From a virus: 22,979 nt of DNA. This document shows positions 1 to 22,979 of this stretch, in pieces. Each line of letters begins with the position of its first letter. Positions within the stretch are counted from its first letter, which is position 1. Where the stretch lies: positions 1,086-24,064 of IMG/VR virus record IMGVR_UViG_3300030328_002148, one strand, 5' to 3'. A model generated the notes under the pieces. That model had not been told where the DNA came from. It saw only the letters and a list, made by a program, of their open reading frames with translations, and searched no databases. Both the position numbers and the translations under genes were made by a program.

Positions 1-1074
1 GATGAGCATGGAAGCCCAGTCTTCAATACTCCGGATCATGACGTCTTTGACCCCCATGGAGAGTTAATAGATATAGGCGTAATTGACAGTTGGCAGAATG
101 AAGCTGACGGTTTAAAAAATGACCAAGACGCGTTAAACGAATTTTATAGACAATTTCCAAGAACTACAGAGCACGCGTTTAGAGATGAAACAAAAGGAAG
201 TATATTTAATTTAGTAAAGATATACGAGCAAATAGATTACAATGAAGAGATGTCTAGAACATTAGGTATTTCAAGAGGTAATTTTCAATGGGTTAACGGG
301 ATAAAAGACACTAGTGTTATATTTTATCCAGATCCAAAAGGAAGATTTAAAATAAGTTGGACGCCACCAACAAATATACAAAACAAAATAATAATAAAAA
401 ATGGCATTAAATATCCTGGTAATGAACACATGGGGGCTTTTGGTTGTGACTCATACGATATATCAGGAACTGTAGATGGTCAAGGATCAAAAGGAGCTTT
501 ACACGGTTTAACAAAATTCAGCATGGAAGATGCGCCAGCTAATCAATTTTTTTTAGAATACTTAGCTAGACCACAGACCGCAGAAATGTTTTTTGAAGAT
601 GTATTAATGGCAATAGTTTTTTATGGAATGCCAATACTTGCAGAAAATAATAAACCTAGATTGCTTTATTATCTTAGAAGAAGAGGATATAGGGGTTTTA
701 GTATGAATAGGCCTGATAAAGTATGGAATAAACTATCCGTAGCAGAAAGAGAGATAGGTGGTATACCAAATTCAAGTGAAGATATAAAACAAGCTCACGC
801 TGCAGCAATTGAAATGTATATACAAGGGCACGTGGGAATGAAGCAAGATGGTACTTTTGGTAGTTGTTATTTTAACGAACTACTAAATGATTGGGCAAGA
901 TTTGATATAACTAAAAGAACAAAACATGATGCTTCTATTAGCTCTGGATTAGCTATAATGGCCAACAATAGGCATTTATATTCACCTAATGCAAAAATAG
1001 AAAAACCTAAACTAAACATAAGTATTGCTAAGTATCATAACAAAGGTAATACATCAAAATTAATTAAAGAATAA
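1..1074 (+). CDS. terL: Terminase large subunit, C-terminal part (5' end outside window)
   Basis: The frame is open from base 1 and ends at TAA 1072-1074, giving 357 residues of a protein that begins upstream; the ATG at 250 is internal. The visible part corresponds to the RNase H-like nuclease domain, which cuts concatemeric DNA during packaging; the ATPase domain would lie before the window. A QFPRTTEHAFRDE stretch near residues 62-74 is typical of the linker between the ATPase and nuclease halves. Three acidic residues fit the metal-binding triad: Asp150 in FGCDSYDISGT, Glu215 in PILAENN and Asp310 in KHDASISSGLAIMA (numbered from the first base). The LRRRGYRGF segment between the second and third acids is also usual in phage terminases. 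The portal gene starts two bases after the stop, the common terminase-portal pairing. The assignment is by motif and position; no alignment was run. Confidence 0.88.
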   Translation, partial: DEHGSPVFNTPDHDVFDPHGELIDIGVIDSWQNEADGLKNDQDALNEFYRQFPRTTEHAFRDETKGSIFNLVKIYEQIDYNEEMSRTLGISRGNFQWVNGIKDTSVIFYPDPKGRFKISWTPPTNIQNKIIIKNGIKYPGNEHMGAFGCDSYDISGTVDGQGSKGALHGLTKFSMEDAPANQFFLEYLARPQTAEMFFEDVLMAIVFYGMPILAENNKPRLLYYLRRRGYRGFSMNRPDKVWNKLSVAEREIGGIPNSSEDIKQAHAAAIEMYIQGHVGMKQDGTFGSCYFNELLNDWARFDITKRTKHDASISSGLAIMANNRHLYSPNAKIEKPKLNISIAKYHNKGNTSKLIKE

Positions 1075-1076
1075 AT

Positions 1077-3500
1077 ATGGCAGAGTCTGTTATAAATAAT
1101 TATTTTCCTAGTCAAGTAGTTAGTGACTTAGAAAAAATGAGTAATGAATATGGTTTAAAAGTAGCTAAAGCTATTGAGAACGAGTGGTTTCATGCTGATA
1201 GAGGTTCCAATAGATATAAAACTAATAATAACAATTTTCATAAATTAAGATTGTATGCTAGAGGAGAACAATCAATACAAAAATACAAGGATGAGTTATC
1301 TATAAACGGTGATTTGTCCTATTTAAATTTAGACTGGACACCTGTTCCAATAATACCTAAATTTGTTGATATAGTTGTTAATGGTATAGCTGAAAGAACA
1401 TATGATATAAAAGCTTATTCTCAAGATCCGTATGGAGTTCAAAAAAGAACTGCATATATGGAATCTATACTTAAAGACATGAGAACTCAAGAACTTGCTG
1501 ATTTTGTTGAGCAACAAATGGGTATTGATATTAGAGAAAACAAAAAAGAAGAATTACCTGGTTCAGAAGAAGAGTTAAAACTTCACATGCAATTAACATA
1601 CAAGCAATCTGTTGAGTTAGCAGAAGAACAAGCTTTAAACGTGTTAATGGAAGGTAATAAATACGAGTTAATTAAAAAACAATTTTATTATGACCTTACA
1701 GTTTTAGGCATAGGCGCTGTAAAAACAGAGTTTAATACCTCTCAAGGTGTTGTAATTGATTATGTTGATCCGGCTGATTTAGTTTATTCATATACTGAGT
1801 CGCCATACTTTGACGATGTATATTACGTTGGTGAAGTTAAAATGATACCTGTTAATGAACTTATAAAAGAATTTCCAAATTTAACTTTATCAGAATTACA
1901 AGATATAATTAAAAACAAAAATCACAAGCAAACTAATTATAATAAATCAGGGTCAAATTTAAGAGAAGAAGACAATAATAAAGTTCAAGTTTTATATTTT
2001 AATTATAAAACATATATGAACGAAGTTTATAAAGTAAAAGAAACTGGTACTGGTGCTAAAAAGATATTACCAAAACCTGACACGTTTAATCCACCAAAAG
2101 ATAAGGATGGTAATTTTGACAAACTAGAAAGATCTGTTGAGTGCTTGTATGATGGCGCTATGATATTAGGCACGGAAAAACTACTTAAGTGGGAAATGGC
2201 TAAAAATATGGTGAGGCCAAAAAGTGATTTTACAAAAGTAAAAATGAATTATGCTATTGTAGCTCCTAGAATGTACAAAGGTAAAATTGAAAGTTTAGTA
2301 AGTAGAGTAACTGGTTTTGCCGACATGATACAACTTACGCATTTAAAACTACAACAAGTATTATCAAGAATGGTTCCAGATGGTATATACTTAGATGCAG
2401 ACGGGTTGGCTGAGATAGACTTAGGTAACGGAACTAATTATAACCCACAAGAAGCTTTAAATATGTTTTTCCAAACAGGATCTGTTATAGGTAGATCGTT
2501 TACTTCAGAAGGTGACATGAATCCAGGCAAAGTACCTATACAAGAAATACAATCGGGTTCTGGTGGTCAAAAAATGCAAAGTTTAATTCAAACTTACAAT
2601 TATTATTTACAAATGATAAGAGATACAACCGGATTAAATGAGGCTAGAGATGGTAGTATGCCAGACAAGAACGCTTTAGTAGGGGTGCAAAAATTAGCAG
2701 CAGCTAATTCCAACACTGCGACAAGGCACATCTTACAAGCTGGTTTATATTTAACAGCCGAAACTGCAGAATGCTTATCTCTTAGAATATCAGATATTAT
2801 AGAATATTCTCCAACAAAAGACGCTTTTATACAGCAAATAGGCAATCATAATGTTGCTACATTAGAAGAAATGAAAACTCTTCATCTATATGATTTTGGT
2901 ATATTTATAGAATTAGCGCCAGATGAGGAAGAAAAAATGTTACTTGAAAATAATATACAACAAGCTTTGGCTCAGCAAAATATAGAACTTGAAGATGCTA
3001 TTGATCTTAGAGAAATAAAAAATATTAAACTTGCTAATCAACTATTAAAAATACGTAGAGCTAAAAAACAAGAAAGAGATCAAATAATTCAACAACAAAA
3101 TATTCAAGCCCAAGCGCAGGCTAATATGCAAACGCAACAAGCCGCTGCCCAAATGGAAGTTCAAAAACAACAAGCTCTTTCACAAAGTCAAGCACAACTT
3201 GAGCAAATGAAAGGTCAAATTGAATCTCAAAAAATGCAACAAGAAGTTGCTCATAAGAAAGAGTTAATGCAAATTGAGTTTGAAATGAATATGCAATTAG
3301 AACAAATGAAGAGTCAAACAGTTAGCAATAAAGAAAGAGAGAAAGAAGATCGTAAAGATCAAAGAACAAAAATACAAGCGACACAACAAAGTGAGCTTAT
3401 AGATCAAAGAAAAAATGAAAAACCACCTAAAAACTTTGAATCTGCAGGTAATGATATATTAGGTGGGGGTTTTAATTTAGGTGCCTTTGATCCTAGATAA
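1077..3500 (+). CDS. Portal protein (head-tail connector)
   Basis: The portal forms the dodecameric ring at one capsid vertex through which DNA is packaged and ejected. The 807-residue length is near the upper end for podovirus portals (T7 about 536, P22 about 725, N4 about 763). Supporting segments are an N-terminal helical region with RLYARGEQSIQKYKDEL, the conserved-looking DWTPVPIIPKFVDIVVNGIA (from residue 86), and the GIGAVKTEF...VIDYVDPADLVYSY block (residues 211-239), a common portal clip/wing pattern. From about residue 670 to 780 the chain becomes Gln/Lys/Glu-rich and should form a long coiled coil, perhaps an internal barrel or a scaffold contact. The tail ends in a glycine-rich GGGFNLGAFDPR. 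The start follows the terminase stop by two bases in the context ATAAATATGG, without a Shine-Dalgarno sequence. The identification rests on position between terminase and scaffold plus these segments. Confidence 0.85.
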   Translation: MAESVINNYFPSQVVSDLEKMSNEYGLKVAKAIENEWFHADRGSNRYKTNNNNFHKLRLYARGEQSIQKYKDELSINGDLSYLNLDWTPVPIIPKFVDIVVNGIAERTYDIKAYSQDPYGVQKRTAYMESILKDMRTQELADFVEQQMGIDIRENKKEELPGSEEELKLHMQLTYKQSVELAEEQALNVLMEGNKYELIKKQFYYDLTVLGIGAVKTEFNTSQGVVIDYVDPADLVYSYTESPYFDDVYYVGEVKMIPVNELIKEFPNLTLSELQDIIKNKNHKQTNYNKSGSNLREEDNNKVQVLYFNYKTYMNEVYKVKETGTGAKKILPKPDTFNPPKDKDGNFDKLERSVECLYDGAMILGTEKLLKWEMAKNMVRPKSDFTKVKMNYAIVAPRMYKGKIESLVSRVTGFADMIQLTHLKLQQVLSRMVPDGIYLDADGLAEIDLGNGTNYNPQEALNMFFQTGSVIGRSFTSEGDMNPGKVPIQEIQSGSGGQKMQSLIQTYNYYLQMIRDTTGLNEARDGSMPDKNALVGVQKLAAANSNTATRHILQAGLYLTAETAECLSLRISDIIEYSPTKDAFIQQIGNHNVATLEEMKTLHLYDFGIFIELAPDEEEKMLLENNIQQALAQQNIELEDAIDLREIKNIKLANQLLKIRRAKKQERDQIIQQQNIQAQAQANMQTQQAAAQMEVQKQQALSQSQAQLEQMKGQIESQKMQQEVAHKKELMQIEFEMNMQLEQMKSQTVSNKEREKEDRKDQRTKIQATQQSELIDQRKNEKPPKNFESAGNDILGGGFNLGAFDPR

Positions 3501-4750: not shown

Positions 4751-6193
4751 ATGGCAATTACTGCAGGAGGTAATTTGAATAAAACTCCGTCCCCTATACA
4801 GGCGACGTTAAGCTCAAATTACATTGATTTTATAGACGGTAGTACTGGTTGGGAACAACAGTATTTACCAGATTTAATGGAAGCTGAAGCTGAAGTTTTC
4901 GGAAAGAGAACTGTTTCAGGATTTCTAAAACAAGTCGGAGCTGAAGAAGCAATGACTGCTGACCAAGTAGTTTGGTCTGAGCAAGGTAGATTACATTTAG
5001 CGTACACTGGTACAATAGATGCGTCTGCTTCATTAGTAACAATTTCAGGTTTAGTAGGTTCTAACGCATCGTACACTTCTGGATCTCACGGTCTTAGAAT
5101 TGGTGATACTTGTTTAGTAGCTTCTGCTACTGTAACTTACCCAGGTCGTGTATCTGCGGTTTCTACTAACGACGTAACAATTCTTCCTTATACTCAGGGT
5201 CACGCAAGTGAAGCTGGTATTGGTATGGGTGATGAAGCTGTTACTGTACTTAAGTATGGTTCTGAGTGGAAAAAAGGATCTGATACTCCTTATTCTACTG
5301 CTAACGAGCCTTCTTTCTTATCTTATAGCAACAAGCCAGCTATTATTAGAGAAATGTATCAAGTCTCAGGATCTGATGCTTCTCAAATTGGTTGGGTTGA
5401 AGTTACTGGAGAAGATGGAACTGGTGGTTACTTATGGTACTTAAAAGCTGAAGGTGAAACTAGAATGCGTTTTGTTGACAACTTAGAGATGACATGTCTT
5501 GAAGGTGTTATGGTAGCTAATGATTCTACTGTAGAAACTTCTATAGGTATGGATACTGGTAAACCAGCTGGTACTCAAGGTTTATTTGATGCTATCGCTG
5601 ATAGAGGAAACAAATCTTCTGGTATTTCTGGTGTTAACGCTGCTACTGATTTAGCTGAATTTGACGCTATCTTAGCTGAGTTTGATAAGCAAGGTGCTAT
5701 TGAAGAAAATATGATGTTTGTTAACAGAGCTACTTCGTTAGCTATTGATGACATGTTAGCTTCAATGAATTCTTATGGATCTGGTGGTACTTCTTGGGGA
5801 GTATTCAACAACTCTGAAGAAATGGCACTTAATTTAGGTTTCTCTGGTTTCAGAAGAGGTTCTTATGACTTCTACAAGTCTGACTGGAAATACTTAAATG
5901 ACCAAGGAACAAGAGGTGCTATCAACGACAGAGCTACTACAGATGCAATACGTGGGGTAATGGTTCCTGCTGGAGTTTCTTCAGTTTATGATGAAAATCT
6001 AGGGAAAAATCTAAAAAGACCTTTCTTACACGTTAGATATAGAGCTTCTCAAACAGACAATAGATACATGAAAACATGGATTACTGGTTCTGTTGGTGCT
6101 ACTACATCTGAATTAGACGCGATGAGAGTTAACTACTTATCTGAAAGATGTTTAGTTACTCAAGGTGCAAATAACTTTATGTTATTGAACTAA
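4751..6193 (+). CDS. Major capsid protein
   Basis: This 480-residue protein follows the scaffold-like gene directly and is followed by a strong terminator, the usual setting of the coat gene. The N-terminal part (GSTGWEQQYLPDLMEAEAEVFGKRT, then QVVWSEQGRLHLAY around Trp75) resembles coat proteins of marine podovirus-like phages as I remember them. Residues 85-150 are Ser/Thr/Gly/Val-rich and read as a beta-rich insertion (VGSNASYTSGSHGLRIGDT). The remainder is mixed alpha/beta as expected for an HK97-type fold, ending in YMKTWITGSVGATTSELDAMRVNYLSERCLV. The gene uses AAC, TTC, TAC and GAC much more than its neighbours together with GGT, GCT, TCT and ACT, which fits very high expression. The leader is A-rich (ACAATAAAAAAATGG) with no Shine-Dalgarno sequence. 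HK97 fold membership is inferred, not tested. Confidence 0.82.
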   Translation: MAITAGGNLNKTPSPIQATLSSNYIDFIDGSTGWEQQYLPDLMEAEAEVFGKRTVSGFLKQVGAEEAMTADQVVWSEQGRLHLAYTGTIDASASLVTISGLVGSNASYTSGSHGLRIGDTCLVASATVTYPGRVSAVSTNDVTILPYTQGHASEAGIGMGDEAVTVLKYGSEWKKGSDTPYSTANEPSFLSYSNKPAIIREMYQVSGSDASQIGWVEVTGEDGTGGYLWYLKAEGETRMRFVDNLEMTCLEGVMVANDSTVETSIGMDTGKPAGTQGLFDAIADRGNKSSGISGVNAATDLAEFDAILAEFDKQGAIEENMMFVNRATSLAIDDMLASMNSYGSGGTSWGVFNNSEEMALNLGFSGFRRGSYDFYKSDWKYLNDQGTRGAINDRATTDAIRGVMVPAGVSSVYDENLGKNLKRPFLHVRYRASQTDNRYMKTWITGSVGATTSELDAMRVNYLSERCLVTQGANNFMLLN

Positions 6194-7081: not shown

Positions 7082-7087
7082 TCAAAC

Positions 7088-7126: not shown

Positions 7127-7135
7127 ATAAAAAAT

Positions 7136-7813: not shown

Positions 7814-7816
7814 TAA

Positions 7817-9313
7817 ATGGGATTATTAGACGGCTTTATACAAAAACAAAATGAACAAACAGGCGAAGGTGAACTTATAGATTTAGGTTTAGATTCAAAA
7901 ACATATTACAATGGTCCTGATGGAGTTCAAAGAAGTGGTAATGCTAACTATGGTAATTACCAATTTATATCTCTAGAAGATATAATAAATTCTTTTATAG
8001 TAGCTTATGTTGGTGAAGGCAAAATAATAAGTAAAGTTAGTAGAACTGACGTTGCTTTTCACGCTCAAAGAGCTTTGGCTGAATTAAGTTTTGATACATT
8101 AAAATCTGTAAAGTCTTTTGAATTAGAGGTACCACCATCGCTAAACTTACCTTTACCACAAGATTATGTTCATTATACAAAACTTTCTTGGATAGACGGC
8201 GCTGGTGTAAAACGCCCTATATATCCTACGTCAAAAACTTCTAATCCTATATCTTATCAACAGGAAACAGACGGTGATATAAAGTTTGAAACTAATACTT
8301 GGAAGATAAATATACCAGAAGTAACTATTGATGATGGTTATTATGTTATTGATCCAAACGCAGAAAAACAATACTATGATAAATATATAGAATATGGTAT
8401 TACAAGATCTTATGATTCTTTTGGTAATCCAATAACTTCTACTGAAAATTTTACGTCTAAAACTCCTTTACCACAATTTAAAAGTGAGGTTAGGGTAACT
8501 ATAGCTCAAAACAAAGCTGGTGGAGGACAAAATATGATTTATGGTGTAAACGTAGATCAAGATGGTAATGCTACAAACGATGGTATGATAATACTAATGG
8601 ACACAGACCCAGGTGGTTTAAAAGTTGGTATGAGTGTGTTTGGTCCTGGTATACCGCTAGGCACAACTATAACATCTTTAGATGGTATAACTTCAGTAAC
8701 ATACCCTGGTATAGCTCTACACACAACAAACAAGCGTTACCAAGACTGGAAACTAATGGATGGTGACGCTAATCAACCTGCTATTAACCCTGGAAAACCT
8801 ATTGTAACTGTAAATTCTCAATTGTACGGTAACGAAATAATATTTGTAGATTTAAACACAGAGTCTAATGCTTGGAACAAATATAGATCACATACGTCTA
8901 CAACAACCACAGATGATTATGAAGATGATACAGAATGGATTAATGAAGGGCAAAGATATGGTATTGACCCTCAACACGCACAAAATAATGGCTCTTATTA
9001 TATAGATGAAAATACTGGTCTTATTCATTTTGGTTCAGCCATATCTGGCAAAACTGTAGTCTTAGATTATTTAAGCGATAGTCTTGGGACTGATTCAGAG
9101 ATGCGCGTACATAAGTTTGCTGAAGAGGCAATGTATATGTGCATGGCGTATGCAATTTTATGTACAAGAGCCAACATTCAAGAATATATAGTAAGAAGAT
9201 TTCAAAAACAAAAATTTGCTGCAGTAAGAAAAGCAAAATTAAGATTATCAAATCTAAAATTAGAAGAATTAACTCAAATACTTAGAGGTAAGTCTAAGCA
9301 AATAAAACACTAG
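7817..9313 (+). CDS. Adaptor-like head-tail connector protein with beta insertion
   Basis: This 498-residue protein has ends that resemble the T7 gp11/P22 gp4 adaptor pattern. Near the N-terminus are EDIINSFIVAYVGEGKI and RTDVAFHAQRALAELSFDTL followed by VPPSLNLPLPQDYVHYTKL, the usual 'helix, then beta-strand ending in LP.DY' motif. The C-terminus is helical (MRVHKFAEEAMYMCMAYAIL through RRFQKQKFAAVRKAKLRLSNL). Between them lies a long beta-rich insertion (about residues 110-410) that the small gp4-type adaptors (about 166-196 residues) lack. Residues 266-286 contain GLKVGMSVFGPGIPLGTTIT, which matches a module found twice in the protein encoded at 16070. The nozzle-like gene starts three bases downstream of its TAG. 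The adaptor role is inferred; the insertion could decorate the tail or contact the nozzle. Confidence 0.62.
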   Translation: MGLLDGFIQKQNEQTGEGELIDLGLDSKTYYNGPDGVQRSGNANYGNYQFISLEDIINSFIVAYVGEGKIISKVSRTDVAFHAQRALAELSFDTLKSVKSFELEVPPSLNLPLPQDYVHYTKLSWIDGAGVKRPIYPTSKTSNPISYQQETDGDIKFETNTWKINIPEVTIDDGYYVIDPNAEKQYYDKYIEYGITRSYDSFGNPITSTENFTSKTPLPQFKSEVRVTIAQNKAGGGQNMIYGVNVDQDGNATNDGMIILMDTDPGGLKVGMSVFGPGIPLGTTITSLDGITSVTYPGIALHTTNKRYQDWKLMDGDANQPAINPGKPIVTVNSQLYGNEIIFVDLNTESNAWNKYRSHTSTTTTDDYEDDTEWINEGQRYGIDPQHAQNNGSYYIDENTGLIHFGSAISGKTVVLDYLSDSLGTDSEMRVHKFAEEAMYMCMAYAILCTRANIQEYIVRRFQKQKFAAVRKAKLRLSNLKLEELTQILRGKSKQIKH

Positions 9314-9316
9314 TAT

Positions 9317-12300
9317 ATGCCGGAGATTAAACATGTTTTCAGTCAAGGTAAAATGAATAAAGATCTTGATGAGAGACTAGTACCTAATGGTCAATATAGA
9401 GATGCTTTAAATATACAAGTATCAACTTCAGAAGGATCTGATGTTGGTACAGTTCAAAATATATTAGGCAATAAAGGTATAAAATTTAATGTACCAGCAA
9501 ATTCTACTTGTGTTGGTGCAATTGCAGATGAAAAAAACAACTCATTATATTGGTTTGTTACAAGTCAATATATAGATATGATACTTGAGTACAAAGAAGG
9601 TGTAATAACGCCTGTTATTGTTGATACTTTAAAAAACGTTTTAAAATTTAATTCTGAAAACATTATAACTGGTATTAATATAATTGATAATTTATTATTT
9701 TGGACAGACAATGAAACAGAACCTAAAAAAATAAATATAGATCTTTGTAAACAAGGTACTAATCAAAACGGTTTTACTCATACACACTTAATAGTTCCTG
9801 ATAGAGACATAGGAATTACAAGTAGTATAAAAATAAGAGAAGAACATATAACCGTAATAAAAAAATCTCCTAAAAAACCTTTAACGTTAAATATAACTTC
9901 AGAAACTCTTATTGAAGCTCGGTCTTCTTTTGCTTTTGATAATGGTACTAGCAATCTTTACACCGTAAATGATATTTTTATTATTGAAAATATAGACTTT
10001 ACACGTGGAAATAGATTTAATATAGGCGAAGTAGTTTTTTTACTAGCAGACGGCCAAACAGGTAGTCTTCCAGAAGAATATAATATAAGACTTGAGGTAA
10101 TAGAAAATGTTAGTGGTAAAACTTTTCAAACAAGAAATACTCTTAACCAGCAAAATCAAATTCAACCAGCGCCATATCCACCAAACAGTTATTCTTTTAA
10201 AGTTTTAAGTGTTGATACATCAGTAACTATATCTCCTACTTCTTATGATATGATGCAGGGTGGTAATCAAGAGAAATTTTTTGAAAATAAACTTGTAAGA
10301 TTTGCTTGTAGATACAAATATAGAGATGGCGAATACTCTTGTTTTTCTCCATTTTCGCAAATAGCTTTTATTCCTTCTAAATTTGATTATCAAACAAAAC
10401 TTGCCTATAACTTAGGTATGGAAAATCAAATTAAAGAATTAATTATTTCTGATTTTAAACAAAGTGATATTTTAGAAAATGTTGTTGAAATAGAAATATT
10501 ATCTAAAAATAGCAATTCTCCTATAGTTTATTCTATTGATAAAATAAAACCTACAGACGCACAAACAACTACAATGGTTAATCCCAATGGTAGCATTTCA
10601 CCCGCTAACAACTGGCAATCTAATGAGTACAAAATAAACTCTGACATTATATATGCTGCTTTACCCTCAAATCAATTACTAAGATCTTTTGATAATGTTC
10701 CTAAAAAAGCATTGGCCCAAGAAGTCACTGGAAGTAGAGTTGTATACGCTAATTACGAGCAAAATTATGATATTTTAAATACACTTGGCAAGCCTCAAAA
10801 ACCAGAAATGCTAGCTTGGTACGAAAATAGATTTGTTGATATAAATATTGATAATGAATTACCTTTAAAATCCTTAAAGTCTAGTAGAGAGTATCAAGTA
10901 GGGGTTGTGTATGTAGATGAGTACGGTAGAGAAACGCCTGTTTTTAGTAGTTTTAATTCTATATTTAAACTGCCAAAAACAACATCAAGTCTTTCTACAA
11001 AAATATCAACAAGTATTGCAACAAGTCATCCATCATGGGCAAAGGGATTAAAATTTTATATTAAAGAAAATGCTAATGAGTATTATAATTTAGCAATGGA
11101 TAGAGTTTATAAAGCCGAAGATGGTAATTTATGGCTTGCTTTTCCATCTTCTGAGAGAAACAAAGTTGATGAAGAAACTTTTTTAATATTAAAAAAACGT
11201 GTAAACACGTCTGCAGCTGTTATAGAAGAAGCTAAATACAAAGTAATAGCTATTAGTAATGAAGCGCCTTTATTTATTAAAACTGTAAAAAAAGAAGTTG
11301 CAAGAACTCAAGGTAATCCTTCAGGTACTACCCCAGAAGGTGTAGAAGTGTTTTTCGGTACAAACGACACGCCACAGGTTGAAAATAGATCTTTTAGAAT
11401 GAAATCTGTCGAGTGGAAAACTGCGATTGGAAATGTTTCTTTAACACCTTTAGAAGATATTAACGAAACAATATCTATAACGTTTAGAGACCCAGTTCAA
11501 AATATTTATAGCAAAGCATATGTTATGAGTGAACTTGTAGATAATGCTGGTTTTTATAATATTGTTTTAGAAAGACCTATAGATGAAAGTGATTCTTGGA
11601 TATACACAGATCCAAACGTTACAACAAATGCTGGGTTTATACCAACTTTAGAAATTATAATTCATAAATACGAAGTTACAAATAGACCTGAGTTTGAAGG
11701 TAAGTTTTTTGTAAAAATATACAGCGATGAACTTGCTCAAGATTATATTCTTAGACCTGCTTTGGGTGAGTTAACCTTTGAAACATTAGCTGCTGCTCAA
11801 ACTTTTCAATTTTCAGATACAGCTTTTGTGCCTGGAACTGGATCAACATTTGACGTGCACGGACAAGACACAACGGCCCTAGGTACTCCTTTAGTTAGTT
11901 ATAATTTAAATAACAATTGGGAACTTGTTGGAAATCCTTTTTCTTATCAATCTAACGATCCTGATCTTTATCCTACAACTCCAAATTATACAGAGTGGGA
12001 AGATGTTATTGATGCTGCTAGAGAAGATGATGAAGGTGTTTGGTTTATCGATAGAGCTTATTTTAGAGGTGAAGCACCTAATGTATTTTTTCCACAAAGT
12101 GAGAGTGGACCACCCAACGTTCTTGCTGCTCAAACCACTACAGATGGTTATGGTATAACAGTGACTGCCGGTGGGTATAACACCACGTATTACCATACAA
12201 TATCTTTTAACTGGGCACCAGCAGTGGCGTCAGCACAAGAAAGAGATTCCGTTCCATTTAATACTATCGCACAAGGGTTGTATACAGATAATTTTACAGG

Positions 12301-15300
12301 CCAACACTATATAGACATTGCTTTTTCTGGATTAAATAGAAATAAATTAGAAAATGTTTATAATCGCGACATGCCTTCAGACAAAGTGTATTTTAGTCTT
12401 GGGAATGCAAGTAAAATTAATTACCAAGGACTTTATTGGGATGGTATCTGGCAAGTTGACGAAGATCAAGAAGACTTTGTTGCTGAAATAAAAGCTGGAT
12501 CACTGTTTAGATTTGATGGGGATGAAAATGAAGTTCTTTATAGAATAAACGAAAGTCCTCAAGTTGTCAGAAGACACAACCATACTAACATGCTTGATTG
12601 GCGATACGCTTATGCTAGAATGCTTAGTGATCCTACTCAAACAAAGATAAATGACGCGACAGAAACTTTTGCAAAACTAATAAGTTCTGACAACAGAAGA
12701 TTAACCTATAAAATACCATATGAGAGGTTTGATGGTGACACTTCTGACATCCTTAATAGTAGTGTTTTTAGTGGTAACTCTATTTTTAATCACAACGTTA
12801 CAGACGAAGACACCGCTGTAAGAATTACATTTTTAAAAGACAGGTTTGACGAGGACAACGTTTTAAATACTGATAATCCAGCGATATGGGAGACAGAACC
12901 AAAAGAAAATGTTGATTTAGATATTTATTACGAAGCTAGTAAAGTATATCCTTTGTCTTTTGATTCTGATACCTGCGGCGTTTTAGTATCAAAAGGTGAT
13001 ACTATAGCTTCTAGTAAACCTAACGTTGTTCTTCCAAACACCCAAGTTGTTTCAGTTGAAGATCAAGTTGTAACTCTTGATGATTTTGTTAACGACTCAA
13101 ATTTAAATCAAGGTGATGTTTTTGCTTTTGTAGACCAAGACGGTGGTTATATAAAACTATCTTTTCATTCATTAATTAATTCAACTTTAGATTCGCAAGG
13201 TAACAATATTTCTAAACAAATAAGGTTTTCTAATGAAGTTGTTAACGAATATGGTTTACCTTGGACTAATTGTTATTCTTTTGGTAATGGTGTTGAATCA
13301 AATAGACTTAGAGATGATTTTAATCAAGTAACTATAGATAAAGGGGCAAAAGCATCAGCGCCAATAGAAGAAGTTTATAAACAAGAAAGAAGAAAAAGTG
13401 GTTTAATATACTCTGGCTTATATAACTCTGTTTCAGGCGTAAACAATCTTAATCAATTTATACAAGCTGAAAAAATAACAAAAGATTTAAATCCAACATA
13501 TGGAAGTGTGCAAAAGTTATTTAGTAGAAATACAGACTTAATTGCTTTTTGTGAAGATCGTGTAATAAAAATATTATCAAATAAAGACGCTGTGTTTAAC
13601 GCTGACGGTAATGCTAATTTAACAGCAACAAATAAAGTTTTAGGACAAGCAATGCCATTTGCTGGTGATTATGGTATATCACAAAATCCAGAAAGTTTTG
13701 CTAAAGAAAACTTTAGAGCATATTTTACAGACAAACAAAGAGGTGCTGTTCTTAGATTATCAATGGATGGATTGACTCCAATATCTGAATATGGTTTGTC
13801 AGATTATTTTTCTGATAATTTAAAAATAAATGACATTCTTCTTGGTAGTTATGATGGTAACAAAAATAATTATAATTTAACTTTAAATGATCAATCTATA
13901 CCTCAAGGTTCTAAAACAGTTACAGCTACTGGAATAGAACATTCTCTCGGTAGTACATATGATGGAAGGTATTTTTTCTTTGAGGAATCAGAAATGAATT
14001 TATTACTTAATAGATCTGATTGGTCCGCTACAGGAGCGGGGTCATTAAATGCACATAAGGTTGTTGAAATGAAACAATATCGAAACAATGTGCTTGTTTA
14101 TAGCGGATTAATGATGCTTTGGAATAGTACTGAACCTAATTCCCTAAACTCTCCTTCTGGAGGGCCAACAAAAGGACACGGAAGAAGAACCAAAGCAGAT
14201 GGTCATATTGTTGGTACTGGTTTTGGTGATTTTAAAACTGGAGATATTATAACTATAGGTCAAAATAAATTAACAATTTCTTTTGATGAAAAAGTTAAAG
14301 GTTGGTCAAGTTTTAAATCATTTGCACCTGAACAAGCTGTAAGCATGGCTAATGACTATTATACTTTTAAAAACGCACAAATTTTCAAGCATCATCAAGA
14401 AGATGTAGATAGAAATACATTTTATAATGTAAAATACCCTTCTAGTATAAGTGTTATATTGAATGAACAAGCTAGTGTTATAAAAACTTATAAAACGTTA
14501 AGTTACGAAGGATCTCAATCAAACGTAACTCAAGAAACTACTGACGTTAGAACAGGTTATTATAATTTAAGCAATAAAGATGGTTGGTATTCACCGTTAA
14601 TATATACTGATAAAGAAGAAGGATATGTTAACGAGTTTATGGAAAAAGAAGGAAAGTGGTTTAACTTTATAAAAGGAAAAGACGTTGCACAAACTTTAGA
14701 TATAAAAACAGATGACTTTTCTTTTCAAGGTGTTGGATCTTTAAAAAACGATTATTTAATTAATCCTGACTTATATGTAGAAGATCCACTACCTGTAATA
14801 TCTGGTTGTACAGATGTTGATGCTGCTAATTATAATCCTAACGCAACAGTTGATGATGGTTCTTGTATTTACAATGATGGTATTATTATTGGTTGTATGA
14901 ATCCTAACGCTACTAATTTTAATCCACTTGCGGTTGTTGATGATGGAAGTTGTATAATACCTATATATGGATGTACTGATCCTAATGCTGTTAATTACTT
15001 TGATCAAGCAACTGTAAATGATGGGTCGTGTGTTTATTTACAGCCAGACGAAACAACAAAAGTTTATGGGTGTACAGATCCAACCGCTTTTAATTACGAT
15101 AGAGATGCAAATGTGGATGACGGAAGCTGTGTGTGGGTTGCAAGTAACTATGGCTGTACAGATCCTACAGCGTTAAATTATGATCCAAACGCAACTATTG
15201 ATAATGGTAGTTGTACTTATCCTGTTCCACTAGTTTTAAATGCACCTAATCTCTCTGTAGCAACAGAAACGTCAAGTTTGGTAGAAATAAATTTAAATTT

Positions 15301-16066
15301 TGATCCTGCTCAAGGAGGTACAGGACCGTTTACATACAGTTGTACTTATCAACACTCAGCAATGAATAATCCTGCTGATGTAATGGATGGATATATTTCA
15401 CAGTTATATCCTGGTACTCCTTATGTAGTTGAAATAGATCCAACACCTGTTGGTGCTCAAGATATTACTTTTGTTTTAACAGCTGTTGACACTAGTAATG
15501 GTAATACTGTAAGTTCAACTGGTATTATCAGGGCTGGAGTTTTACCGCCTCTTTCTGCATCTATAACAGCCAATGTAAGTAATAATGTTAATGTTGTTGA
15601 TACTTTGGCAATAAATGGAACTCAAGATCCAGGTGGTAATGTTATTAACGTTCTTGTTTTAGGTAATCTTGATTTAGATGTTCAACCGACTGGAGGCTTA
15701 GCACCTTTTGGTTGTTCAGTGTCTTTTAATCACGGCTCAACTCCATCGCCTGTTCAATATATTGATTACAATTCATCAACACCAAACACAAACCCAAGTG
15801 GGCCTTCATACACAAATTTAGTATTGATTGATTACCCACAGTCTTTACCAGGACTATCTGTTCCTTGCCCTGGAGTAACTAGTATTTCTAATACTGTAGT
15901 TCTTGACAACGCGTTTAGCTACACGTCTCCAAACCCACAAGTAGATACAATAGACATTGAATGTGGAATAACGGACTTTAACTTAGATTCTATAACTATA
16001 AGTACTCAAGCAGATATTGCAGGTACTAACCCATCCACTTGGAATGGATTATTTCCTTATCAATAA
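9317..16066 (+). CDS. Giant tail nozzle-like protein with C-terminal adhesin-like modules
   Basis: This 2249-residue protein begins with FSQGKMNKDLDERLVPNGQY and RDALNIQVSTSEGSDVGTVQ, a start that I associate with podovirus nozzle/stabilisation proteins (T7 gp12, P22 gp10). Propeller-like strands follow, for example LYWFVTSQYIDMILEY and LFWTDNETEPKKINID (Trp129). A second conserved-looking block is at about 1395-1490 (GSVQKLFSRNTDLIAFCEDR, then AYFTDKQRGAVLRLSMDGL). Between and after them are long beta-rich stretches. Residues 1830-1966 hold five Cys-flanked repeats, and 1970-2249 reads as two or three Ig/SprB-like domains. T7 gp12 is about 794 residues, so most of the length is extra. No signal peptide is visible, as expected for a virion protein. 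It probably forms the tail tube end and also carries receptor-binding modules, replacing separate tail fibres. A single frame without stops spans the whole gene; it is followed three bases later by the next gene. Confidence 0.72.
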   Translation: MPEIKHVFSQGKMNKDLDERLVPNGQYRDALNIQVSTSEGSDVGTVQNILGNKGIKFNVPANSTCVGAIADEKNNSLYWFVTSQYIDMILEYKEGVITPVIVDTLKNVLKFNSENIITGINIIDNLLFWTDNETEPKKINIDLCKQGTNQNGFTHTHLIVPDRDIGITSSIKIREEHITVIKKSPKKPLTLNITSETLIEARSSFAFDNGTSNLYTVNDIFIIENIDFTRGNRFNIGEVVFLLADGQTGSLPEEYNIRLEVIENVSGKTFQTRNTLNQQNQIQPAPYPPNSYSFKVLSVDTSVTISPTSYDMMQGGNQEKFFENKLVRFACRYKYRDGEYSCFSPFSQIAFIPSKFDYQTKLAYNLGMENQIKELIISDFKQSDILENVVEIEILSKNSNSPIVYSIDKIKPTDAQTTTMVNPNGSISPANNWQSNEYKINSDIIYAALPSNQLLRSFDNVPKKALAQEVTGSRVVYANYEQNYDILNTLGKPQKPEMLAWYENRFVDINIDNELPLKSLKSSREYQVGVVYVDEYGRETPVFSSFNSIFKLPKTTSSLSTKISTSIATSHPSWAKGLKFYIKENANEYYNLAMDRVYKAEDGNLWLAFPSSERNKVDEETFLILKKRVNTSAAVIEEAKYKVIAISNEAPLFIKTVKKEVARTQGNPSGTTPEGVEVFFGTNDTPQVENRSFRMKSVEWKTAIGNVSLTPLEDINETISITFRDPVQNIYSKAYVMSELVDNAGFYNIVLERPIDESDSWIYTDPNVTTNAGFIPTLEIIIHKYEVTNRPEFEGKFFVKIYSDELAQDYILRPALGELTFETLAAAQTFQFSDTAFVPGTGSTFDVHGQDTTALGTPLVSYNLNNNWELVGNPFSYQSNDPDLYPTTPNYTEWEDVIDAAREDDEGVWFIDRAYFRGEAPNVFFPQSESGPPNVLAAQTTTDGYGITVTAGGYNTTYYHTISFNWAPAVASAQERDSVPFNTIAQGLYTDNFTGQHYIDIAFSGLNRNKLENVYNRDMPSDKVYFSLGNASKINYQGLYWDGIWQVDEDQEDFVAEIKAGSLFRFDGDENEVLYRINESPQVVRRHNHTNMLDWRYAYARMLSDPTQTKINDATETFAKLISSDNRRLTYKIPYERFDGDTSDILNSSVFSGNSIFNHNVTDEDTAVRITFLKDRFDEDNVLNTDNPAIWETEPKENVDLDIYYEASKVYPLSFDSDTCGVLVSKGDTIASSKPNVVLPNTQVVSVEDQVVTLDDFVNDSNLNQGDVFAFVDQDGGYIKLSFHSLINSTLDSQGNNISKQIRFSNEVVNEYGLPWTNCYSFGNGVESNRLRDDFNQVTIDKGAKASAPIEEVYKQERRKSGLIYSGLYNSVSGVNNLNQFIQAEKITKDLNPTYGSVQKLFSRNTDLIAFCEDRVIKILSNKDAVFNADGNANLTATNKVLGQAMPFAGDYGISQNPESFAKENFRAYFTDKQRGAVLRLSMDGLTPISEYGLSDYFSDNLKINDILLGSYDGNKNNYNLTLNDQSIPQGSKTVTATGIEHSLGSTYDGRYFFFEESEMNLLLNRSDWSATGAGSLNAHKVVEMKQYRNNVLVYSGLMMLWNSTEPNSLNSPSGGPTKGHGRRTKADGHIVGTGFGDFKTGDIITIGQNKLTISFDEKVKGWSSFKSFAPEQAVSMANDYYTFKNAQIFKHHQEDVDRNTFYNVKYPSSISVILNEQASVIKTYKTLSYEGSQSNVTQETTDVRTGYYNLSNKDGWYSPLIYTDKEEGYVNEFMEKEGKWFNFIKGKDVAQTLDIKTDDFSFQGVGSLKNDYLINPDLYVEDPLPVISGCTDVDAANYNPNATVDDGSCIYNDGIIIGCMNPNATNFNPLAVVDDGSCIIPIYGCTDPNAVNYFDQATVNDGSCVYLQPDETTKVYGCTDPTAFNYDRDANVDDGSCVWVASNYGCTDPTALNYDPNATIDNGSCTYPVPLVLNAPNLSVATETSSLVEINLNFDPAQGGTGPFTYSCTYQHSAMNNPADVMDGYISQLYPGTPYVVEIDPTPVGAQDITFVLTAVDTSNGNTVSSTGIIRAGVLPPLSASITANVSNNVNVVDTLAINGTQDPGGNVINVLVLGNLDLDVQPTGGLAPFGCSVSFNHGSTPSPVQYIDYNSSTPNTNPSGPSYTNLVLIDYPQSLPGLSVPCPGVTSISNTVVLDNAFSYTSPNPQVDTIDIECGITDFNLDSITISTQADIAGTNPSTWNGLFPYQ
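14804..15214 (+). repeat. Five GCTDP...DDGSC protein repeats
   Basis: Within the nozzle-like gene, residues 1830-1966 contain five tandem units of the form [G]C-T-D-P-x-A-x-N-Y-x-x-x-A-x-V-D-D-G-S-C. The first unit runs Cys1831 to Cys1850 and the last Cys1947 to Cys1966. Each has 18 residues between its two Cys. The units are separated by short linkers and differ at the DNA level, so they are not recent duplications. Similar repeats are known from secreted and surface proteins of marine Bacteroidota. The paired Cys could form a disulfide and the Asp/Asn residues could bind calcium; both are inference. Confidence 0.9.
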
Positions 16067-17756: not shown

Positions 17757-18716
17757 ATGGCAGAAGAATACTCTTTATTAAACCCATTTCAAAGAAGCAT
17801 AATTGACCCAAGATATAGTGGTTTAAATTTAAAATTTGGTAGCAGTCTATCTAATATTTATGGCGACAACAAAGGCTTAAGCAGTAAATATGGAGGTTGG
17901 AATATTGGTGGTAGTACTGGTTATAATTTTAATACGGGTCTAGGTATTAATTTAAATGCAGATCAAGGTATGACTTTTTCAGGAGGAGATACTATGGCTA
18001 ATGTTACTGATGCGGCTGCAGCTGGAGGAGGTGGTATGTTTGGTGGTTTTAAAAATATGTCCGCCGCACAACAAATGCAAGTTGCCGGAGGTATTGGTGG
18101 TATTATACAAGGTTTAGTAGGAAGAAGAAAAAGAAGATCTGAGCAAAGAAGAGCTAAGGCGGAATATCAAAAACAAAGAAAACTGTACCAACAATTAGAT
18201 ACTAGTAATTTAGCGTCTGGATTTCAAAACACATTTGCTAACATGGAAAACACTTTTGAGGATTTAACCGTTAATCAACAGCAAGCACAGTTTATGGCAC
18301 AACAAAACCAACAAAGCCAAGCAAATATTATGCAGGGATTAAGAGGTGCCGCGGGTGGTAGTGGTATCGCTGGTTTGGCTCAAGCAATAGCAAATCAAAG
18401 TCAATTAGCTACTCAAAAAGCTTCTGCAAGTATAGGATTACAAGAAGCACAGAACCAACGTATGGCAGCTCAAGGAGCAGCCGCAAGACAAACAGCTGAA
18501 AGACAAGGAGAGCAATTTGCGCAATTACAAAGATTACAAGGTGCTAAAGATGCTAGAGCTTTAGATTGGCAAAAACAAGAAATGGAATTAGGGTTTGCAA
18601 TGCAAGAAAAAACTGCTGCAGATCAAGCTGTACAAAGCGCTAACGCTGCTCTATATGGTGGTATTGGATCTTTAGCAACAACAGCATTAACTGGTGGTTT
18701 TTCATTACCGGCATAA
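17757..18716 (+). CDS. Internal virion (ejection) protein-like, T7 gp14 position
   Basis: This 319-residue protein has the composition of podovirus core/ejection proteins. Its beginning is Gly/Asn-rich, with a Gly/Ala-rich patch (AAAGGGGMFGGF, then GGIGGIIQGLVG) just before a basic cluster RRKRR (residues 123-127). A Gln/Ala-rich helical stretch follows from about 130 to 290 (QQQAQFMAQQNQQSQANIMQ, GIAGLAQAIANQSQLATQKA). The C-terminus is a short hydrophobic/Gly segment (AALYGGIGSLATTALTGGFS). Such Ala/Gly/Gln-rich helical proteins with weak membrane-active ends are ejected from the capsid to help DNA cross the envelope (T7 gp14). It precedes two larger genes in the order expected for gp15 and gp16. 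The similarity is in composition and order only; no homology was demonstrated. Confidence 0.55.
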   Translation: MAEEYSLLNPFQRSIIDPRYSGLNLKFGSSLSNIYGDNKGLSSKYGGWNIGGSTGYNFNTGLGINLNADQGMTFSGGDTMANVTDAAAAGGGGMFGGFKNMSAAQQMQVAGGIGGIIQGLVGRRKRRSEQRRAKAEYQKQRKLYQQLDTSNLASGFQNTFANMENTFEDLTVNQQQAQFMAQQNQQSQANIMQGLRGAAGGSGIAGLAQAIANQSQLATQKASASIGLQEAQNQRMAAQGAAARQTAERQGEQFAQLQRLQGAKDARALDWQKQEMELGFAMQEKTAADQAVQSANAALYGGIGSLATTALTGGFSLPA

Positions 18717-18728
18717 AACAAATAAAAT

Positions 18729-20303
18729 ATGGCAAGACAATCAACTAACTTATTAAGTATACACAAAGAAATGTTAAAAGCGGGTGAAGATACTCGCGCG
18801 AAGTCTCTTATTAGTGGTGCAATGGGAGCTTTTGCTCTTAATGTGGCTGAACAAGAAAAGAAAGAGGCCATGATGGATAAGACTATGGAAGATCTTGGTG
18901 GCATACAAAATATTGTAAAAATACCACAAGAACAAAGAGGAGCGGTTGAAGAGTTTTTAAGAACAAATAGAGATGAATATGCTTCTTTAGCAGAGCAATA
19001 TATGAAAACAAAAGACCCTGCTATTAAAGACAAAATGAACGCTATTAAGTATAAGTTTGAAAATTTAAATAATCAACTTGATCAATACGCTACAAACAAA
19101 GCAGAATACATGAGTGATTATGAAGAAGGAAACTTAATGAAAGGTGGTAGTTTTGCTAAAGATAATAATTTCTTTTTAGGTATGTATGGAGATCCAAATA
19201 ATCAATTTGCTATTGATGACAATGGTGAAATATCTTTTACTGTAGACGGAGAAACAAAATCACTCAAAGACGCTGGTACTCACACTTTAAGAAATTTTGA
19301 AGGCGAAAAATATGCAGACGATTTATTCTTAAATGCAGCTGATTTAAAATGGAAAGGTGGTTATTTTGATAAAGGTGCTTATTCTAGAAATTTTGTTAAC
19401 CAACATAAATCAATTTCTAAAAATGATTTGTCTGCTTTATTACAAAGTGATTTAAGTGGTGATGGTGACAAACCCTCTTTTATGGATCAATGGTCGAATG
19501 GAGAATTAGCTGACGAGTTTTATCAAGGTGTAGATAAAGAAAATATAACTGAAGAAGATGTAAATAATTTATTAAAAGATAAACAAAGAGGTTTAGATTT
19601 AATGGGTAAATACGTTGGTAATATTTCACAAGATATATATGACGAAGGAAAATTAAGCCCTGAAGTTAGTTTAGATAGAAAAGCAAAACAAGCACAAATA
19701 GATTCGATGAATAAAAAATCTAAAGGTGACGATGAAGATATTGATTTAGGAAGAAAAGATATTAAAGGTAATTGGCGTAAAGACAAAGTTGTAAGAGAAC
19801 AAATAGAAAGAATAAATAATCCTAAAAAAGGTGATATTCTTCCTTATGGCGATGATGTTTATGAGTGGAACGATGAAAAGAAAGGTTGGGACGATGGTTC
19901 TGGAAAAATATTAAAACCAAAACAGCTTTATGATATAATGGATTTACCTCCAAACATGTATAACCTTAGTGACACTGGTATGACAGAAGAAGAAATAAAT
20001 CAGCAGGGTATGCTAGGCGTTGAAGATTTTATGCAAAACGAAACTAATTTTACTAATTTTATACAAACAAAATACGATTTAGATAACTATATTATAAAAG
20101 ACACAAGAGATGATCTTGGTGGACTTTTTGAAAAAATGGAAAATCATATTACAATATTTGATAAAAACACTGGAGAAGAGGTGTTTAGAACTAGAACAAA
20201 TTATACTAATCCAGAAAATGCTGTAGGACCAGCTGGTGATTTTAACGCTTGGTTAGAAAATAATAATATTCAGACAAGAGCAAAAAACAGACCTCAAAAA
20301 TAA
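18729..20303 (+). CDS. Possible internal virion protein, T7 gp15 position
   Basis: This 524-residue hydrophilic protein has no signal peptide or clear membrane segment. The N-terminal 140 residues are helical (AFALNVAEQEKKEAMMDKTM, YKFENLNNQLDQYATNKAEY). A mixed central part contains an EISFTVDGETKSLKDAGTHT segment, followed by a highly charged linker (about 310-350, Lys/Asp-rich). The C-terminal part has FTNFIQTKYDLDNYIIKDTR and an EEVFRTRTNYTNP strand. Its place between the gp14-like and the large open gene, and its lack of enzyme motifs, suggest an ejection-core or other minor virion protein. The assignment depends on neighbours. The start follows AATAAAATATGG and the next gene begins six bases after the stop. 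Confidence 0.5.
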   Translation: MARQSTNLLSIHKEMLKAGEDTRAKSLISGAMGAFALNVAEQEKKEAMMDKTMEDLGGIQNIVKIPQEQRGAVEEFLRTNRDEYASLAEQYMKTKDPAIKDKMNAIKYKFENLNNQLDQYATNKAEYMSDYEEGNLMKGGSFAKDNNFFLGMYGDPNNQFAIDDNGEISFTVDGETKSLKDAGTHTLRNFEGEKYADDLFLNAADLKWKGGYFDKGAYSRNFVNQHKSISKNDLSALLQSDLSGDGDKPSFMDQWSNGELADEFYQGVDKENITEEDVNNLLKDKQRGLDLMGKYVGNISQDIYDEGKLSPEVSLDRKAKQAQIDSMNKKSKGDDEDIDLGRKDIKGNWRKDKVVREQIERINNPKKGDILPYGDDVYEWNDEKKGWDDGSGKILKPKQLYDIMDLPPNMYNLSDTGMTEEEINQQGMLGVEDFMQNETNFTNFIQTKYDLDNYIIKDTRDDLGGLFEKMENHITIFDKNTGEEVFRTRTNYTNPENAVGPAGDFNAWLENNNIQTRAKNRPQK

Positions 20304-20309
20304 TAATTA

Positions 20310-22979
20310 ATGGCAGAATACAAAGACAGCGAAGGTCGAGTTTATAACGAAAGAGATCTTAAAGTTTATGCTAGAGAAGAAGGCTTAAGCTTTGATGATT
20401 ATCTAAAAGAATATAATCTTGAGTTCGATAAAACAGACTATGATGATGCTGATTTTGGAGACAAAATGGTGTCTCTTGGTGCATCTACTGCTTTAGGATT
20501 TGTAAGTTTTGCCGAAGGTTTAAGCGATATAAAAGATGGTTTGATTTACACCATGAGCACTGCTGGTGAAGATTTAAACGCTAAGCAAAAAGAAATGGCT
20601 ATGAAAGCTATTAAAACTCAATATGGTGGCGATCCTTTTGAAAAATACATGGAGAAGCTTGAGCGATCAAAACTTGAGTTTGATGAAGCTAGTATAACAG
20701 AAACTTTTAAAGAAGGAGATTATTATGAAGGTGGGTTTAGAGCTTTTGAAGCTGGTTTACAAAGTATGCCTTCTATATTAGCGGCTGGACTTGGTGTGCC
20801 AGGTTTAATAGGTTTGGCAGCTTCAACCGCTGGTAGTAAGTTTGAAGAGGAGTTTGAAGAAGATCCATCACAAAAAGCTACTACGCTTTTGTTTAATGCG
20901 GCTGGTTCCGGTGTAATTGAAGCAGGTTTTGAGCTTGCAACAAGGGGTCTTTTAAAACGCGCTGGATTAGTTAAAGGTTTAGGTGGTGATGCTAACATGA
21001 AATTAGCAGAAGAAATTGTTAGAGGTGGAGCTGCTAGTATTGTTAAAAACGTGGGTAGTGGTATGGCATCAGAAGCGGCCTCAGAAGCAGCTACTGAATT
21101 AACATCTACCATGTGGGATCAAGTTACTCTTGGTAAAAAAATAGATTGGGAAAGAAAAATATACGAAATAGCTGATGCTGGTATTGTTGGTGGTTTAGTT
21201 GGTGGGGTAATGGCAGGCGCTGGTGAAGTAAAGAAAAAATCTAGAGCTTCACAAGAAATGGCTTACGGTATATTACAAGACAATATAACTGGTAAAGAAC
21301 TAGCTGAAAAACAAGAACAGTTAAATGCTTTAATATTAGATCAGCAAGGCGCAAGACCAAAACCTAAATCAGAAGATCCTGATGGTGAATATGAAATAAT
21401 ACAAGATCAAATAAATGAGGTTTTGTATGAAATGGGTAATTTAAAACAAAGATCTATACAGGGATTAAGAAACTTAAATAAAGATGAGTTTGACGTTTAT
21501 TTTAAAAACGTTAAAAAAGCTAGGCCATTAAATAAAATATTAAACAGTAATAAGTCAGATGTTATAAAAAATAAAGCTCAAAAAGAATACGATGCTTTAA
21601 TGGAAGAAAACTTAGGTATGTTAAGAGAAGCTAGTGACAGAAAGCTAGAACAAAACCTAAGTGAAGCTGAAAATAGAGCTGCTCAAAGAAACGGTGAGAT
21701 TAAAGTTTTTGAAACACAAGACGAATATATAGAAGCCGTTAGTGGTGTCTCTAGAAAAAAAGTTTTAAATAAAGAAACTGGTAAAGAAGAATATAGCAAA
21801 GAGTTTATAGAAGCTGCTAGAGAACATAGATATAGTGATGGTAAAATTGTAGATGGCGTGTCTTTTATAAACAAACAAACAGCTAAAAATTTAGGATCTG
21901 TATCTGTTGGTTCACATGAAGTTCTTCACTCTATTATGGATAAATATATTAGAAATCAGGATGGTACCGTAAAAGATGAAGCTATAGAATTAATAGATGA
22001 TATGCTAGCTGGCATGTCTAAAAAAGACAGGAAAGTGCTAGAGGACAGGATAGATAGTAATTATAAATTTAACAAAGACGGTACCGAAAAAAGCAAAAGA
22101 GATTATTACGACGAGTATTTAAATGTTTTACACGACGCTATTGTTAAAAAACAAATTACTTATAACAAAAACTTTGACGCTATAGGTGGCAGGTTTAACG
22201 ATATATTTAGAAAAGCTGGTTATGGTGCTATTGATTTGTCTACAGGTAAGGGTTTATATAATCTTATAAGAACGTATACTAAAGCTATTGAAACAGGTGA
22301 AAGTACTGCTGATTTAGACGCTATAATAGAAGAGTCAAAAGGTTTTGCTATAAAAGGTAAAGAAGCTGGTAGAAAATCTATTGATTTAGGCACGGAAGAT
22401 GATGGTATACCATTAAATGAAAAAATAGATCCACTAACTGAAAATGCTAAAACAAAAGAAGAGTTTCAAGCGGGTGGTGTAAGAGGTGCGTTTGCCAAAG
22501 TATATCAAGGTATTTTAGATGGTAGTTTTGATAGGCTTTTTGGTAGTGTTAGTGAGCAACAAAAAGAAATACAAAGACAAAACCTTGCTGATAGACTTAT
22601 AAATTATGATCCTAAAAAATCACCTAGTCTTTTTGCTTGGATGCAAGGTAATAGAAGTAAACAGGGTAATGTTGAGTTTGCAGCAAAAGATGCTAAAAAA
22701 GAATTAGCAAAAAAGAAAGAAAGAAAAACTGTAAGTCTTGATGCTAAAAAGAAAGCTAAAGAAGGTGACGTAAAGCAAGAAGTAAAAGATACGTCTGCAG
22801 ATCCTGAGCAACAACTAATAGCTAAAGAGAAAAGAGAGCAACAAGAAAAACTACTTAAAGCTAAACAAAAAAAGTTTGAAGCATCTTTAGGTATAAGTAC
22901 TGATTTACAGAATAAAATTAAAACTGTAGTTACAAAAGTATTTGGCGGTAAACTTCCACCTGTTACAAGTCCTAAGTAT
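20310..22979 (+). CDS. Large internal virion/polyvalent-like protein with HEVLH zinc-peptidase motif (3' end outside window)
   Basis: The frame is open from ATG 20310 to the last base (890 codons, no stop), so the protein is longer than 890 residues. The start context is TAATAATTAATGG. Hydrophobic, Gly/Ala-rich stretches occur at about 153-175 (SMPSILAAGLGVPGLIGLAA) and 290-305 (AGIVGGLVGGVMAGAG, a glycine-zipper pattern), as in ejection proteins that insert in membranes. Helical, charged regions follow. Residues 536-540 read HEVLH in GSVSVGSHEVLHSIM, the HExxH signature of zinc metallopeptidases. Glu602 in YYDEYLNVLHDAI is a candidate third ligand 62 residues further on. Residues 730-860 are Lys/Glu/Gln-rich. 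The position matches T7 gp16, whose enzyme domain is a transglycosylase; here I see no such motif, and a peptidase would be the analogous cargo. Large phage proteins injected with the DNA (polyvalent proteins) often carry such peptidase domains. Activity is inferred. Confidence 0.62.
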   Translation, partial: MAEYKDSEGRVYNERDLKVYAREEGLSFDDYLKEYNLEFDKTDYDDADFGDKMVSLGASTALGFVSFAEGLSDIKDGLIYTMSTAGEDLNAKQKEMAMKAIKTQYGGDPFEKYMEKLERSKLEFDEASITETFKEGDYYEGGFRAFEAGLQSMPSILAAGLGVPGLIGLAASTAGSKFEEEFEEDPSQKATTLLFNAAGSGVIEAGFELATRGLLKRAGLVKGLGGDANMKLAEEIVRGGAASIVKNVGSGMASEAASEAATELTSTMWDQVTLGKKIDWERKIYEIADAGIVGGLVGGVMAGAGEVKKKSRASQEMAYGILQDNITGKELAEKQEQLNALILDQQGARPKPKSEDPDGEYEIIQDQINEVLYEMGNLKQRSIQGLRNLNKDEFDVYFKNVKKARPLNKILNSNKSDVIKNKAQKEYDALMEENLGMLREASDRKLEQNLSEAENRAAQRNGEIKVFETQDEYIEAVSGVSRKKVLNKETGKEEYSKEFIEAAREHRYSDGKIVDGVSFINKQTAKNLGSVSVGSHEVLHSIMDKYIRNQDGTVKDEAIELIDDMLAGMSKKDRKVLEDRIDSNYKFNKDGTEKSKRDYYDEYLNVLHDAIVKKQITYNKNFDAIGGRFNDIFRKAGYGAIDLSTGKGLYNLIRTYTKAIETGESTADLDAIIEESKGFAIKGKEAGRKSIDLGTEDDGIPLNEKIDPLTENAKTKEEFQAGGVRGAFAKVYQGILDGSFDRLFGSVSEQQKEIQRQNLADRLINYDPKKSPSLFAWMQGNRSKQGNVEFAAKDAKKELAKKKERKTVSLDAKKKAKEGDVKQEVKDTSADPEQQLIAKEKREQQEKLLKAKQKKFEASLGISTDLQNKIKTVVTKVFGGKLPPVTSPKY

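Follow-up and report, generated by a model that had tools for sequence, protein, structure and literature searches.

The gene at the far end of this viral locus raises the question of what a zinc-peptidase motif is doing in what is putatively the largest protein that the phage ejects, and whether it would serve to open the host cell wall, to attack host proteins after injection, or to process the very protein in which it resides. The window, by which we mean the whole 22,979-nucleotide stretch analysed here (positions 1,086 to 24,064 of IMG/VR record IMGVR_UViG_3300030328_002148), stops at the final base of the 24,064-base record, and the contig end thus interrupts the giant gene, leaving its N-terminal 890 codons on the plus strand (20310..22979, open at the contig end). 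The full-length giants of close relatives comprise 2,190-2,408 amino acids, and those of the full-length relatives as a whole about 2,200-3,400.

The genes upstream, all on the plus strand, identify the company that this giant keeps: the window opens with the C-terminal part of the terminase large subunit (TerL; 1..1074, phrog_6681 and tblastn), followed by the portal protein (1077..3500, phrog_6547), the capsid genes, among them the probable major capsid protein (4751..6193; phrog_13704, tblastn matches to flavophages, and the same position as the Calle_1 major capsid protein), the gene for a 2,249-residue muzzle (tail) protein (9317..16066) carrying the crassvirus muzzle C-terminal domain (PF25729 at 34.8 bits against a cut-off of 27; phrog_14478), several smaller open reading frames (ORFs), and then the giant. 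Two of the smaller ORFs can be placed by position, namely a 319-residue product that may be a cargo/ejection or tail protein (17757..18716; weak PHROG match only) and a 524-residue product (18729..20303) that has no family match in Pfam or PHROG and may be a smaller cargo/ejection protein, since it precedes the giant as gp100 does in phi40:1. The preliminary description had set the locus in a T7-like frame, which gives way here to a different kinship: the phage is a relative of those that infect marine flavobacteria, its tail and head genes being closest to those of Elemovirus, Pervagoviridae, and Pachyviridae phages of Flavobacteriia, and of the Crassvirales traits the muzzle C-terminal domain is present, whereas TerL and capsid instead match the Elemovirus, Cellulophaga, and Maribacter phages, as well as the Manatee Spring phage. 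Related phages hold one giant protein at the equivalent position, and the record of phi40:1 states that its giant, gp101, was detected in virions by MS/MS; by analogy with these relatives, the window giant probably travels in the virion and is ejected. Within this group, the elemoA giant has the same zincin domain (profile E-value 1e-10, motif HEIFH, as for the cultured Elemovirus on Flavobacterium sp. BAL314), the Manatee Spring giant has two HEFGH motifs and the Gundel_1 giant one, these being other zincin-like motifs, and in phi40:1, phi13:2, and Panino the virion giant at the equivalent position shows no HExxH, a point against the self-processing favoured below. Two syntenic giants (L009:741-12320 and L010:18229-23718) are annotated as a reticulocyte binding/rhoptry protein and a tRNA methyltransferase, respectively, which look like misannotations.

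Within the ORF at 20310, the features first described from the letters alone are where they were said to be. HEVLH occupies residues 536-540 (21915..21929), with H536 and H540 as predicted zinc ligands and E537 as predicted catalytic base, and E602 (22113..22115), the predicted third ligand, sits in DEYLNVLHDA; the two glycine/alanine hydrophobic segments are likewise present, at residues 156-174 (20775..20831; possibly membrane-active) and 287-305 (21168..21224), accompanied by weaker hydrophobic segments at residues 53 and 193, and the N-terminal region of the ORF is common to the giant of Maribacter phage Panino. The main ORFs of the window hold no other HExxH, and composition predicts 0.002 copies in the 890-residue ORF and 0.06 across all 7,572 residues, so that the HEVLH observation is correct and goes beyond chance.

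Conservation tells the same story from the side of the homologues, of which searches of IMG/VR yielded 85 distinct domains. None of the 85 departs from H536, E537, H540, and E602, and this includes the whole of a subset (21/21) retrieved mainly with patterns that lie outside the motif. An alignment of 82 sequences, the majority with about 16-30% identity to the window protein, has these four positions as its sole invariant columns, and when the whole 890 residues are aligned across 56 sequences, the only addition is E259. That these columns are the only invariant ones, E259 aside, is what one expects of a catalytic-site signature. N521 (21870..21872), on the edge strand ahead of the active-site helix, is an asparagine in 79 of the 85 domains. 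Neither the window protein nor the 82-member alignment, used as query against Pfam, PHROG, and PDB sequences, returned a significant family. As a separate observation, E259 (21084-21086), kept without exception across its 56 sequences, belongs to the hydrophobic N-terminal region.

The predicted structure agrees with this reading. The AlphaFold model of residues 425-700 (mean pLDDT 83, pTM 0.81) places HEVLH on a helix (109-123 in model numbering) and E602 at the start of another, the next conserved one (helix 177-188, E178), with the elements arranged as an N-terminal helix, a short beta sheet, and two C-terminal helices; together with the 82-sequence alignment and the structure matches, it delimits a zincin domain at about residues 425-680 (21582..22349). 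In VIA-align, rows 1-14 are lethal factor, Certhrax, Zmp1, and an edema factor complex, some rows covering the catalytic part of lethal factor (459-776) and others its N-terminal part, while collagenase peptidase domains rank lower; the best neighbours score Z 4.9-5.1 over 141-160 aligned residues. Because a Z of about 5 is middling, we claim a zincin-like fold, which the model supports well, and make no claim of membership in M34. A second model, of all 890 residues, is poor in its N-terminal half (mean pLDDT 63), and for this reason we make no fold claim for residues 42-305; in the same model, residues 677-692 fall below pLDDT 50 and are likely flexible.

Against this background, one can weigh the reading that the motif, whose possible origin by chance the preliminary description itself raised, lies in a coiled or structural region that has no peptidase. 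HExxH is a short pattern, and Foldseek against the PDB gave no significant E-value (best 0.8, the top rows being lethal factor); nonetheless, invariance in 85/85 domains, third ligand included, and a confident zincin-like model make such an accident scarcely credible. The zinc-peptidase interpretation, with Glu602 as third ligand, has thus survived both the homologue comparison and structure prediction, and we regard the fold and the active site as well supported by alignment and model, and infer zinc binding and catalysis from them.

What the domain does must be sought in the proteins that carry it. Among 69 distinct giants, 65 hold HExxH, four hold HHDxxH, and none lacks both, where composition would predict fewer than one HExxH giant; the selection of giants retains some bias, as certain search patterns fall within the zincin, and among 28 giants from less motif-biased searches, the corresponding counts are 24, four, and zero. 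We had entertained giants devoid of any zincin as a separate category and dropped it, as those without HExxH carry HHDxxH. The HHDxxH form occurs in a matching context at residue 1031 of L096 and at residue 868 of L106 and L118 and is possibly an active-site variant.

Downstream of the zincin, the full-length relatives carry a HAD phosphatase-like domain (residues 1523-1670 of the close relative L006, and equivalents), beyond the point at which the window copy is cut; its DxDxT motif is present in 18/19 aligned giants and is followed by conserved TAR and DD motifs, and its weak matches to polynucleotide kinase are consistent with the phosphatase half of that enzyme. Other modules come and go. 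The L054 giant (6811-14325) begins with a phage lysozyme (residues 20-149, E-value 1e-13), with the zincin motif at 822 and the HAD domain at 1642, and one giant, probably L108 (5653-14415), matches Zeta toxin/AAA, with a Walker A motif near residue 2124, right after the start of the HAD domain, as the likely source of the match. The zincin is kept while other modules, such as the lysozyme and the kinase-like insert, are swapped. No convincing RNA polymerase DxDxD motif was found in close relatives, the single pattern match (in L007) looking like chance; no lytic transglycosylase was matched by Pfam in the 890-residue fragment or in full-length L006; and an LPD38 search returned no match, its control being equally silent. 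Judged by this architecture, the giant is probably a virion cargo protein of the polyvalent type.

This modular build also bears on the proposal that the zincin aids envelope entry by taking over from the transglycosylase of T7 gp16 and cleaving either envelope proteins or peptides of the cell wall. The hydrophobic segments, the position equivalent to that of a T7 gp16-like protein, and the Pfam search that found no lysozyme in the window's own fragment would all suit such a role, but the L054 giant unites an N-terminal lysozyme and a zincin in one polypeptide, which tells against the earlier thought that the zincin simply replaces a cell-wall enzyme, and the fold neighbours act on proteins rather than on the cell wall. 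We therefore consider an entry function highly improbable.

A further clue came from scanning each giant for over-represented short patterns. Many giants yield forms of [KQ]FS[KRE][ST] spaced at domain joints, that is, after the zincin, in mid-protein, just ahead of the HAD domain, and just behind it, and the form differs by lineage: QFSK five times in L045, FSET/FSES six times in L029, LSIT/LSLS five times in L023, ESK at four joints in L106 and L118, and R.S..L four times each in L003-L006. The window belongs to a lineage whose form is R-x-S-x-x-L, which appears as GRKSIDL just after the zincin and recurs in the middle of the protein and on either side of the HAD domain; since the contig breaks off within the gene, a single joint lies within the window, namely RKSIDL at residues 688-693 (22371..22388), a predicted processing site directly after the zincin. 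The generic form [KQ]FS[KRE][STDE] occurs 92 times in the giants as opposed to 3.4 times in shuffled sequences (maximum 8), and 49 of the 92 copies fall in two short stretches that flank the HAD domain; it is absent from 23/69 giants, and among 599 other ORFs, some of which may themselves be truncated giants, 40 copies occur. An automatic triple finder went astray in L002 and L006, and the motif counts rest on other scans.

The joints of one protein resemble one another more than they resemble those of other proteins: none of 300 permutations reaches the observed value at any of three redundancy cuts (15, 24, or 42 proteins), and pairwise tests give p 0.0015, 0.0055, and 0.11. Such concerted change of short sites is the trace to be expected from one enzyme that reads several sites in a polyprotein, and with a zincin in the same chain, the obvious candidate for the cutter is at hand. 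That zincin and joint motif vary together more than phylogeny explains could not be established: a partial Mantel test, which related distances among zincins to those among joint motifs and controlled for the C-terminal domain, is weak (r 0.07, p 0.057).

The last result is one of two that suit a different account, according to which the zincin is an active protease with another job, while some other phage or host protease cuts or binds the joint motif, or this motif acts as a threading or packaging signal; the other is that similar joint motifs are shared by giants with differing HExxH contexts or with HHDxxH. A general prohead protease would be expected to leave the same marks elsewhere, yet the lineage-specific forms, which for each locus were picked from the giants themselves, turned up in none of the other late ORFs at 13 loci, and a zincin-type motif is kept in every giant examined. 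We hold this account to be unlikely, if worth reckoning with. There is also the idea that the zincin acts as an effector, cleaving some host protein after delivery into the cell, a possibility that PMC5512222 names and that draws on the nearest structural neighbours, some of them secreted zincins whose substrates in other systems are host proteins. Retention of the zincin while the lysozyme and kinase-like insert are swapped, and the joint motif, sit better with self-processing, and we regard an effector role as decidedly unlikely. Of the earlier cargo proposal, then, the cargo stands as probable, of polyvalent type and in the virion, and the attack on host proteins has receded.

Because the joint motif is repeated, we favour self-processing over both host-protein attack and cell-wall opening. 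On this explanation, which we judge moderately probable, the zincin would be of the Glu type, with H536, H540, and E602 holding zinc and E537 serving as base; the giant would be a polyvalent cargo that travels in the virion and leaves it together with the DNA; and the zincin would cut it at the short motif repeated at the domain joints, so that a long chain could thread the narrow tail and release separate enzymes in the cell. An alternative timing would have the giant trimmed during assembly. Both the cleavage at the joints and the identity of the cutter are what we infer from the motif, which resembles the protease sites of a polyprotein. That many phages deliver their injected enzymes as one giant polyprotein, with a built-in zincin cutting the joints and with the motif and the protease diverging in step from lineage to lineage, is a wider generalization that we offer more tentatively, as a prospect just short of even. 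If it holds, a polyprotein strategy like that of RNA viruses would exist within tailed-phage cargo, and one could see how a very large cargo passes a narrow tail as a string and ends as separate enzymes. More immediately, the joint motif pinpoints candidate cut sites across dozens of giants, one of these sites in the window, and these named sites make the self-processing idea directly testable.

Comparison with known systems helps to separate what is ordinary here from what is new. T7 gp16-type ejection proteins resemble the window giant by position, as the last giant virion gene with hydrophobic segments, and differ in that the window part has no detected transglycosylase and carries a zincin instead, joined in relatives by a HAD domain. 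The best structural neighbours, the M34 zincins (the lethal factor catalytic domain and Zmp1/PPEP-1), score in the middling range and show no detectable sequence match. Nearer in context is the crAss001 cargo protein gp47, with a conserved HExxH and downstream glutamates, a similar size, a gene placed after the muzzle block, and a profile probability of 84, although its zincin lies at the C-terminus rather than in the first third and belongs to a different sequence clade. Annotated as an RNA polymerase subunit, gp47 (L135:16120-23145, motif at residue 2157) has a C-terminal HExxH zincin-like domain that is conserved in Steigviridae and Suoliviridae, and the words protease and peptidase are absent from the main text of the structural paper PMC10172136. 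The C1 domain of the N4 virion RNA polymerase (vRNAP), itself a giant protein that is ejected, is likewise a zincin; it has HExxH together with a conserved glutamate in NEFMAW, and its active site aligns with that of the window, although the N4-type profile matches the window zincin weakly (hhalign probability 43) and, unlike in N4, an RNA polymerase is not recognised in window-type giants. According to PMC5512222, the N4 enzyme, which has a zincin, is reported to be packaged uncut; given so comparable a protein, the window giant may be cut after ejection or not at all.

The closest class is that of the polyvalent proteins, of which zincins are reported in PMC5512222 as the commonest domain; their job may be self-processing, host attack, or something else, and the same paper proposed self-processing from phage P1 DdrB on general grounds. 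The window zincin differs from polyvalent MPTase domains in having no Pfam or PHROG family match, and it shares with them, as described there, a HExxH helix, a glutamate on the next conserved helix, a variable insert between the two, and residence in a giant multidomain protein of the injected type. Polyvalent proteins are described there as modular, and the giants studied here are built alike. The zincin is thus real and ordinary for its class, in which such domains were already known, and the new and unexpected element is the joint motif repeated in these giants, a candidate cleavage motif that the MPTase account in PMC5512222, as far as consulted, does not give and that is added here.
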